A stretch of DNA of 64,000 nt from Micromonospora sp. CCTCC AA 2012012 (GTDB taxonomy: Bacteria; Actinomycetota; Actinomycetes; Mycobacteriales; Micromonosporaceae). The notes beneath the pieces are model-generated. The model made no database searches. It saw nothing but the letters and a program-made list of their open reading frames with translations, and had not been told where the DNA came from. The position numbers and the translations under genes were made by a program. The DNA lies in NCBI RefSeq assembly GCF_040499845.1, contig NZ_CP159342.1, positions 2,976,001 to 3,040,000 on the forward strand. The letters are read 5' to 3'. Positions 16,002 to 26,885 of this stretch are shown here, piece by piece. The stretch's first letter is position 1; each line of letters opens with the position of its first letter.

Positions 16002-16305
16002 GCGCTTCCCTTCGTCCTCTCGCGCCGCCAGCTGGGCGCCGGCCGGCGCGGGCGGTCGGGGCGGGCCGCTGCGCGCGGCGGCGGGGCCGGACGGTCCGGG
16101 TGGACGGCCGGGCCGCGCCCCGGCAGGGCCGGGCAGCCTCGGCGCGCCGCCTTTGCTCTGCTTACATGGGCGCGGCAGTTGTCGTCCGACATCCGGACGC
16201 CGGGTGCTGCGTCGGTGTGTGCAGAGCAAAGGGAGCGCCGGGACACCCTCGCCCGGCCACGACCCACCGTCTCCCCGCCCGCACCCACCGTCGACCGGTG
16301 CCGGC
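16002..16305. other. Intergenic region between pyrD stop and bioA start
   Basis: This 304-base gap holds inverted-repeat element A at 16141-16239. No coding frame with family resemblance was found; the minus-strand frame that continues bioA upstream starts inside the repeat and looks spurious. The stretch from 16240 to 16305 is GC-rich without notable structure. Confidence 0.6.
16141..16239. repeat. Inverted-repeat element, copy A
   Basis: Termini CCTTTGCTCTGC (16150-16161) and GCAGAGCAAAGG (16221-16232) are perfect 12-bp inverted repeats. An outer GGCGC/GCGCC pair (16141-16145, 16235-16239) extends the structure. Inside, the strands continue to pair with G-U wobbles for about 15 more positions, and a small hairpin GTCCG/CGGAC caps the loop. 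The right half, GGGTGCTGCGTCGGTGTGTG leading into GCAGAGCAAAGGG, is nearly identical to the right half of copy B at 26685-26716, differing at two positions. It lies after pyrD and before bioA. It could terminate the pyr operon, but the shared sequence shows it is a dispersed element. Confidence 0.75.
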
Positions 16306-17334
16306 TCACCGCCGGCCGGCCGGTACCGCCGCCGCCCGGGCGGCGGCCCGGACCAGCGCCGGACCCCGGTAGATGAACCCGGTGTAGAGCTGCACCAGGC
16401 TGGCGCCGGCGTCGAACATCCGCGCCGCGTCGTCCTGGTCGAGGATGCCCCCCACCCCGACGACGGGGAGCCGACCGCCGGTCTCCCGGTGCACGAACGA
16501 GACCACCTCGCGGGCGCGTCCGGTGAGCGGACGGCCCGACAGGCCGCCGGCCTCCGCGCCGCGCTCCCGGTCGGCCGGTGCCAGCCCGTCCCGGGACAGC
16601 GTCGTGTTGGTGGCGATCACCCCGGCCGCGCCCCGGTCCAGGCAGACCTCCAGCAGCTCGGCGATGGCCGGCTCGGTCAGGTCGGGGGCGATCTTCACCA
16701 GCACGGGCTTCTCCCCCACCAGCGCCGTGAGCAGCGCGTCCAGGTGGGACCGGTCCTGCAGGGACCGCAGCCCCGGCGTGTTCGGCGAGGAGACGTTGAC
16801 CGCGAAGTAGTCACCGTGCCCCTTCAACGCCCGGTAGGAGGCCAGGTAGTCCTCGACCGCCTCGTCCAGCGGAGTCACCTTGGACTTGCCGAGCGAGATG
16901 CCCAGCGGCACCCCGATCGGGCGCGGCAGCGCCGCCAGCCGGGCGGCCAGCCCCGCCGCCCCGGCGTTGTTGAAGCCCATCCGGTTGACCACGGCCTCGC
17001 TGTCGCGCAGGCGGAACAGCCGGGGCCGGGGATTGCCCGGCTGGGCGTGCGCGGTGACCGTGCCGACCTCGACGAAGCCGAAGCCCAGCGCCGGCCAGGC
17101 CGGCAGCGCCGCCCCGTCCTTGTCCATCCCGGCCGCCAGCCCCACCGGGTTCGGGAACCGGACGCCGAAGACCGTGCGCGGCGCGTCGACCGCGTACCGG
17201 GCGCGCAGCGCCGCGAGGGCCGCCGGCCGGCGGGACAGCCCCGCCAGCCGGTGCAGCGTCCACTCGTGCGCCCGCTCGGCGTCCCCGCCCCCGATCCGGA
17301 ACAGCTGCGGCCGCACCACCCGCTCGAAGATCAC
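16306..17334 (-). CDS. pyrD: Dihydroorotate dehydrogenase (quinone), class 2
   Basis: A 342-residue membrane-associated FMN enzyme oxidising dihydroorotate to orotate with quinone. It begins with the short amphipathic helix of class 2 enzymes ([12 protein letters not shown]). It carries [25 protein letters not shown] and [12 protein letters not shown] with the catalytic Ser, IATNTT, and GVGGI in the FMN-phosphate site. The GTG start at 17334 overlaps the carB stop as GTGA. It is the last gene of the tightly coupled pyr operon. Confidence 0.97.
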
Positions 17335-25878: not shown

Positions 25879-26435
25879 CAGGCGCGGCCGAGGTAACGGC
25901 CGTCGCGGGTGTCGACCTTGATCTTCTCGCCGGTGGTGATGAAGAGCGGCACCTGCACGGTCGCGCCGGTCTCGACGGTGGCCGGCTTGTTGCCGCCGGT
26001 GGACCGGTCGCCCTGCAGACCCGGCTCGGTGTAGGTGACCTCGAGCACGACGGAGGTCGGCAGCTCGATGTAGAGCGGCACGCTCTCGTGGGTGGCGACG
26101 GTCGCCTCGGCCTCGGGGAGGAGGTAGTTGGCGGCCTCGCCGACGGTGCCGCCGGGGACGGTGATCTGGTCGAACGTCTCCAGATCCATGAAGACGTAGT
26201 CCTCGCCGTCGGCGTACAGGTACTGCATGGTGCGCTTGTCGACGGTGGCGGTCTCGACCTTGGTGCCCGCGTTGAAGGTCTTGTCGACGACCTTGCCGGA
26301 CAGCACGTTCTTCAGCGTGGTGCGCACGAAGGCCCCACCCTTACCGGGCTTGACGTGCTGGAACTCGACGACGGCCCACAGCTCTCCGTCGAGGTTGAGT
26401 ACGAGGCCGTTCTTGAGCTCGTTGGTGGTGGCCAT
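25878..26435 (-). CDS. efp: Elongation factor P
   Basis: A 185-residue tRNA-mimic that rescues ribosomes stalled at polyproline. Three beta-barrel domains are evident, and the tip loop [12 protein letters not shown] carries the conserved lysine. No epmA, epmB or earP gene is nearby, consistent with the actinobacterial KPGKG-type loop working without those modifications. The ATG at 26435 has AAGGCAGGA upstream. The many Pro-rich proteins in this genome, such as that at 38738-41977, would make EF-P important. Confidence 0.97.
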
Positions 26436-26885
26436 TTCCTGCCTTGATCATCAATTGGCGGACAGACCTGGAAAGTCTACTAGCTGTGTCGAACCGGGAC
26501 TCCACGCTGCGCCACCGCACGGACCGACCGCCGCGATCGACATGACGGAGAGTGCCCTCCCCGCCACCCGCACCACCCCGCCCTGGCGCCCTTTGCTCTG
26601 CAGTCACGGACGCAGCGGTCACCCAAAGTGACGATTGTCACCTCTCGGCCTGCTCCGGACCGCAACGAAAAGACCAGGTCAAACGGGTGCTGCGTCCGTG
26701 TGCGCAGAGCAAAGGGGCCGCCACGAGGGTCCGGTCCCTAGCGTGCCGACCGTCACCCATGGTGCCGACCCTTCGGCAACAAGGGTCACGGAAGGTCACC
26801 GACGATGGACCAGCGGGCGACCGGAGAACCGCGCGACGGGCGCACCCGCCCCCTCCGCCGCCGAGCGGGCGCCGACCCGGAGCGG
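26436..26885. other. Intergenic region between aroQ stop and efp start
   Basis: This 450-base gap contains the efp promoter side (a TAGACT -10-like hexamer on the minus strand at 26474-26479) and inverted-repeat element B (26589-26716). A 10-base direct repeat GTGCCGACC-type sequence occurs near 26744 and 26761. No open frame with protein-like conservation was recognised on either strand. Confidence 0.6.
26589..26716. repeat. Inverted-repeat element, copy B
   Basis: The ends CCCTTTGCTCTGC (26589-26601) and GCAGAGCAAAGGG (26704-26716) are perfect 13-bp inverted repeats. After three unpaired positions the strands pair again perfectly for 12 bp: CACGGACGCAGC (26605-26616) with GCTGCGTCCGTG (26689-26700). 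The 72-base interior holds two mutually exclusive small hairpins built from GTCAC (26618-26622), GTGAC (26628-26632) and GTCAC (26637-26641). Termini and right half match copy A at 16150-16232, but the interior differs in length and sequence, as expected of a mobile or structural element with conserved ends. Confidence 0.8.

Follow-up and report, generated by a model that had tools for sequence, protein, structure and literature searches.

Two long inverted repeats lie in intergenic gaps of the window (the 64,000-nt stretch of Micromonospora DNA analysed here), and the question they raise is what kind of element they represent. Palindromes between bacterial genes are commonly interpreted as mobile elements or as hairpins, and a preliminary description of this DNA had suggested a MITE-like element, a structured RNA or a processing element.

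A genome-wide family of paired arms

The positions described for the two repeats (16150-16232 for copy A and 26589-26716 for copy B) were confirmed, as were the shared terminal inverted repeats, found as exact 12-mer tips at 16150-16161 and 16221-16232 in copy A and at 26590-26601 and 26704-26715 in copy B. Their right halves, read off the sequence, show two differences across 32 bases, as described, and the copies rank first and fourth among the inverted repeats of the window (the best 25 of 56 pairs were listed). They are not chance occurrences, since the 6.73-Mb genome contains the CCTTTGCTCTGC tip 47 times, in 23 cases forward and in 24 reverse, while the reversed-pattern control has no occurrence there. 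The exact tips form 23 exact pairs, and three extra pairs with one-mismatch tips, at 189851, 3305198 and 3597239, bring the total to 26 copies. The genome-wide family suspected from two copies is thus borne out, with at least 26 copies, a count from which more degraded ones may be missing, and the search of the termini found further copies in related genomes as well. By size the 26 copies fall into S (69-72 nt, n=15), M (81 nt, n=2) and L (123-124 nt, n=9) classes. One third of the chromosome (contig C1, 0.82-2.99 Mb) is devoid of any recognised copy. The two copies in the window are given below, with the gene names of the preliminary description, with which the window's ORFs agree by eye.

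16151-16231, no strand assigned: copy A, M-type, 81 nt, arms 16151-16177 and 16205-16231 around a 27-nt centre; between the start of the bioA-like and the end of the pyrD-like gene, with same-locus copies in relatives
26591-26714, minus strand as set by the TGASCWG end: copy B, L-type, 124 nt, arms 26591-26617 and 26688-26714; between the aroQ-like and efp-like genes, with same-locus copies in relatives

Each copy consists of two 27-nt arms, inverted relative to each other. An arm starts with the CTTTGCTCTGC tip, followed by the five-nt box 2, which carries the dialect described below, a variable spacer of about four nt and box 3 around CGCANCR. The commonest S form (69 nt) is an arm of 27, a centre of 15 and an arm of 27 nt, and the M form (81 nt) is three times 27. 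The L copies are asymmetric, with a motif around YTGASCWG adjoining one arm and a 15-nt box adjoining the other; the nine L copies of this genome were oriented by eye via a motif of this type. Outer ends of the copies in this genome read CTTTGC, with C preceding the tip in 48 of 52 ends. In a genome of another genus (G255; L265-L284) the copies are 68 nt long, with arms nearly identical between copies and differing 14-nt centres, and the inverted pair is present in 16 of the 20 regions fetched; the tip is preceded there by G instead of C in 22 of 27 ends. At two loci (L081 and L085, about 1483-1590) the outer arm is doubled in identical geometry, with tip and box 2 recurring on each side at an offset of 19 nt, and at G122:C133:4298-4460 three reverse tips, 41 bp apart, stand beside one forward tip, perhaps as a small tandem array of arms.

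Position relative to genes

Among the 24 copies whose gaps could be classified, 10 lie between convergent, 11 between tandem and 3 between divergent genes, and 21 are in gene-end position; of the remaining two, one was called inside an ORF and one has unassigned context. The 55 background gaps of the window comprise 5 convergent, 45 tandem and 5 divergent ones, so that the copies are enriched between convergent genes, in counts that depend on a home-made gene caller and on a background of only five convergent gaps. This enrichment points to a boundary role over promoter control, and a copy between convergent genes is unlikely to serve either of them as a conventional promoter operator. Searches with 22 flanking proteins revealed no common functional theme.

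Distribution, persistence and turnover

Exact-tip copies of 64-92 nt are found in 119 of 160 genomes of the genus (0 to 34 per genome) and those of 112-138 nt in 108 (0 to 37 per genome); 128 genomes have copies in either size range and 32 in neither. The search with a model across the family, proposed in the preliminary description, brought matches to the short-form model (R1) at E 0.001 in 38 of 121 genomes, representing 16 of 44 genera. In a sample of 296 genomes from the class, the short pattern (50-80 nt) appeared in only three, two of them of the own genus; the third, from another family of the class (G346; L169, L172), has the same tip with a different, internally repeated interior. Plasmid and phage records returned no match to one S copy at E 0.01. 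A phage or plasmid origin was considered and rejected, the one viral contig match being chance-like and, by eye, without box 2 and box 3.

How stable are the copies at a given locus? By pyrC, the nearest named relative in the genome collection is a Micromonospora with 96% identity. Among 80 pyrC loci, six Micromonospora genomes have the L form between aroQ and efp, and six have the M form or 111/150-nt variants between pyrD and bioA. At the same loci in 20 further genomes of the genus, some of which appear conspecific with genomes of the 80-locus set (zero tree distance), the pyrD copy is present in nine and the efp copy in eight (seven L and one S). We compared 11 efp and 10 pyrD copies, excluding doubles, the efp S copy and the 111/150-nt pyrD variants. 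Tips mismatch at 20 of 1210 pair-positions at efp and 18 of 990 at pyrD (~2%), a comparison biased towards conserved tips because copies are recognised via them and decayed ones (one was observed, in CP22) are under-counted, while the adjacent 30-nt flanks, with a mismatch of 0.54-0.60, look saturated. Mismatch is 0.51 (efp) and 0.48 (pyrD) in box 2 and 0.28 at both loci in box 3; both boxes are far less conserved than the tip, which agrees with the existence of a dialect. At rsmE, where 30 of the 59 genomes with a match were examined, the S copy occupies 2 of the 30 loci, and this turnover, together with the 32 of 160 genomes without an exact-tip copy in the two size ranges, makes the element look mobile or dispensable. 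Another palindrome, GATCAAGAGGTTCGCGTCA...TGACGCAAACCTCTTGATC, lies at 47568-47622 of the window, and the spacers at rsmE in L178 and L182 contain a similar one.

A genome-specific dialect of the arms

Our analysis goes beyond the preliminary description in two features, a genome-specific dialect of the arms and a BldD-box-like core. At arm positions 12-14, two copies from one genome are identical in 0.82 of the pairs (n=195), as compared to 0.25 for copies from different genomes (n=1696). Position 25 tends to track positions 12-13: arms with TT have A there in 62 of 69 cases, those with AG have G in 19 of 28 and those with AC have C in 17 of 24. The dialect at a locus fully matches that of the genome, as derived from its S copies, in eight of nine testable cases. 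The pyrD copy agrees in five out of five (TT in G001, G002 and G005, AC in G007 and G011) and the efp L copy in three out of four (TT in G003 and G009, AC in G010), the exception being the efp L copy of G011, whose two arms read AT and AC. In a tree of pyrD and efp both dialects are found inside one clade; since the critical nodes are weakly supported, we left dialect switches uncounted.

Paired arms and the hairpin question

Could the palindromes act as RNA instead, that is, as a bidirectional 3'-end hairpin (a terminator, mRNA stabiliser or RNase III site) formed from either strand? The enrichment between convergent genes would suit such a role, the predicted RNA folds are of about -25 to -80 kcal/mol, and simple covariation appears to support it: in 17 copies, 10 pairs had changes in both partners (a count attained in 6 of 500 shuffles) and 27 cells were doubly changed (attained in none of 500), although these shuffles ignore subfamilies. 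Compensatory changes between arms, named in the preliminary description as support for a conserved RNA, are therefore present by simple counting, but only box 2 survives when arms are re-paired within genomes. In this analysis of 76 copies from 12 genomes (62 S copies plus 14 of the 15 from our own genome, the degenerate one at 189851 being excluded), box 2 (positions 12-16, mainly 12, 14 and 15) is coupled with z 4.9 (0 of 1000 shuffles), whereas the spacer, with z 0.8 (212 of 1000), and box 3, with z -0.1 (556 of 1000), are not. Coupling in box 2 alone is what would be expected if both arms are one sequence-specific site, and the palindromy is then the outcome of two inverted copies of that site. 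The interiors do fold as long stems, as had been described, when the sequences themselves are considered, but the pairing of spacer and box 3 does not rise above same-genome chance. Moreover, the tip is nearly fixed in sequence, beyond what pairing by itself would require. The flank composition of the 26 copies shows no run of T after the stem such as an intrinsic terminator would have, and no Rfam family matches copy A or B at the gathering threshold. The suggestion of a conserved structured RNA is thus not supported, and we regard the hairpin explanation as improbable. Elsewhere in the window, at 55787-55854 on the plus strand, Rfam ASdes (RF01781), described as a TB sRNA, is matched with 71.7 bits.

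BldD-box-like sites in and around the copies

The BldD box of Streptomyces, which was defined from promoter regions, has the 13-bp consensus TNAC(N)5GTNA (PMC4151990). Sites resembling it, the other inner motif of copy B and a bldD-like gene are located in the window as follows.

24891-25379, plus strand: bldD-like gene, product of 162 aa, best PDB matches with generic names (DNA-binding protein)
26618-26632, no strand assigned: BldD-box-like site GTCACCCAAAGTGAC, inside copy B, directly adjoining one arm
26672-26689, minus strand: the other inner motif typical of L copies, with a consensus around YTGASCWG and reading CACCCGTTTGACCTGGTC in copy B; adjoins the other arm, extending two bases into it
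26752-26766, no strand assigned: weaker BldD-box-like site with one mismatch, outside copy B
26785-26799, no strand assigned: BldD-box-like site GTCACGGAAGGTCAC, outside copy B

The product of the bldD-like gene matches PDB 2ewt (DNA-binding domain) and 4oaz and others (C-terminal domain), entries that we take to be BldD. At the exact dyad, the S centres (62 copies from 11 genomes) score 3.68 of 6 against TNAC(N)5GTNA, as compared to 1.34 (sd 0.13) for shuffled centres; off the dyad the scores are 0.79 and 0.77 one position away and 1.89 and 1.97 four positions away. This central box is degenerate, being perfect in 2 of the 62 copies, at 5 of 6 in 21 and at three or fewer in 27. The arm-side box of the L copies scores 4.82 of 6 against 1.40 (sd 0.16) for shuffled sequences, with 38 of 39 copies from five genomes at 4 or above, and here the box end was picked via the other inner motif, the box itself being unused in the choice. 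Part of the box signal may reflect common descent of the copies, which shuffles leave in. At the efp locus the mismatch per pair-position is 0.35 on the box side, compared to 0.60 on the opposite inner side and 0.69 in the middle, and this better conservation of the box side speaks for selection.

Boxes are also found beyond the arms of L copies. At the nine loci of our own genome the mean score is 3.33 at -49, 3.33 at +34 and 2.67 at -75, where the null maximum over 1000 shifts averages 2.40, with a 95% value of 2.78 and a highest value of 3.33, so that the -75 box, falling below the 95% value, is not significant in this set. For 19 copies, which include 11 from one locus and are not fully independent, the scores are 3.16 at -49, 2.84 at +34 and 2.47 at -75, with a null maximum never above 2.37. 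The flanks of S copies revealed no boxes.

In the genome as a whole, the strict pattern GTSAC-N5-GTSAC occurs at 45 sites, as against 6 in the reversed control. Six of the 45 belong to the elements or lie no more than 76 bp away from them, and among sixteen others that were fetched some are within called ORFs and some in gaps. The six proteins beside three isolated strict boxes include no known developmental gene product, hence a BldD regulon is not confirmed here. The 14-nt centres in the other genus (G255) bear, by eye, no resemblance to a BldD box, so BldD cannot be required everywhere. A study of Streptomyces clavuligerus overexpressing BldD reports other motifs, one of which, by its own account, found no support in enrichment tests. 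In two convergent gaps of our genome (L214 and L219) there is a third palindrome, of the ATGCCTC...TCATGAATATGACGC.GAGGCATATCGC type, in the ~100 bp around a GTCAC-N5-GTGAC box, beside this strict BldD-box-like site.

Mobile elements and other known systems

The MITE-like reading of the preliminary description would make the copies remnants of a transposon with CCTTTGCTCTGC terminal repeats, and inverted ends, mostly intergenic positions and a patchy distribution are what such a family would have. However, 46 of the 47 exact tips in our genome pair with one another within 130 bp and the remaining one has a one-mismatch partner, so that a longer copy bounded by exact tips is not apparent. Target duplication, already reported as not evident, is indeed absent at all lengths from 2 to 10 bp in the 26 copies (all z below 2). 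Conservation extends past the terminal repeats, with the L copies having boxes at -49 and +34 (and a weaker one at -75) and the S copies none beside them; tips are kept where flanks look saturated; and the S copy compared with plasmid and phage records found no counterpart. A transposon remnant therefore appears very improbable.

The main rival, which we consider rather unlikely, is a REPIN-like population, in which paired inverted repeats would be copied by an enzyme other than RAYT and the dialect would reflect the specificity of that enzyme. It is kept alive by the patchy copy number in both size ranges and by the gain or loss of the S copy at rsmE, and the genome-specific subfamilies, as well as the near-identical arms around different centres in G255, also fit. 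Elements moved by RAYT-like enzymes need not create target duplications, which tempers the argument from their absence at the insertion sites. REPINs consist of two conserved inverted arms around a spacer (Bertels and Rainey, PMC3116915), and our element resembles them in having such arms with a variable spacer, an intergenic location and genome-specific subfamilies. On the other hand, PF01797 (RAYT, Y1_Tnp) has no candidate in our genome and is found in 45 of 160 genomes of the genus: among the 119 that have short-form copies it is present in 31, and among the 41 that lack them in 14. The REPIN/RAYT super-families are characterised by a GTAG- or CGTC-type tag at one palindrome end (PMC3733652), and no such tag was seen by eye at the CTTTGC outer ends of our copies. 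In contrast to REPINs, the 27-nt arm has an 11-nt tip common to a family of genera, Micromonospora copies have a BldD-box-like core and L copies have boxes outside the arms. Tips that stay intact at one locus while the flanks look saturated also speak against this rival.

Other known systems share some of these features. DNA uptake sequence dialects of Neisseriaceae combine a short exact tip, frequently arranged in inverted pairs where genes end, with lineage dialects, all of which is reminiscent of our element; unlike them, it is present in tens of copies, nearly always paired, and has no known link to uptake. Correia, ERIC and NEMIS repeats are likewise dispersed intergenic inverted repeats, which are not known to be related to our element in sequence. 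For Correia copies, binding of IHF and of RNase III is reported to be possible. With the Streptomyces BldD box the putative box shares an identical consensus and gap (PMC4151990), and the window contains a gene for a BldD-like protein, but in our element 27-nt arms flank the box, which is often located in a convergent gap. No description of the family was found in the literature listings searched, where publication elsewhere is possible, and papers containing the letters of the tip were, among the matches listed, unrelated by title.

Proposed role

What is the element then? Our preferred answer, put forward tentatively, is a maintained symmetric DNA-protein site at gene boundaries, probably for BldD and a co-evolving factor, and neither a transposon end nor an RNA hairpin. 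One factor would read the arms as a symmetric pair and would have co-evolved with the dialect; no such dialect-reading factor was found. A BldD dimer would be the natural candidate for the shared dyad in Micromonospora and for the extra boxes of L copies, perhaps responding to c-di-GMP. The complex may work where genes end, its most likely function there being that of a bidirectional boundary, which could stop or separate convergent transcription or anchor the chromosome. The observations cover the family, its anatomy and dialect, the resemblance to the BldD box, the lack of a hairpin signal and the absence of target duplications; BldD binding, the second factor and the boundary function are inferred from them.

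A more elaborate version of this DNA-protein site, which we think possible but doubtful, is that Micromonosporaceae have boundary sites with an address code: a protein would read the dialect, BldD would sit at the dyad in Micromonospora, and the code would shift together genome-wide. If true, this would tie gene-end architecture to developmental signalling through the c-di-GMP effector BldD. The observations made here favour a DNA site coded in its sequence, persistent at some loci, with a code that changes with the genome and, in one genus, built around an apparent box of the developmental master regulator. Such a site, if the proposal is correct, would provide access to the architecture of gene ends and to a site and a factor that change their specificity in concert.
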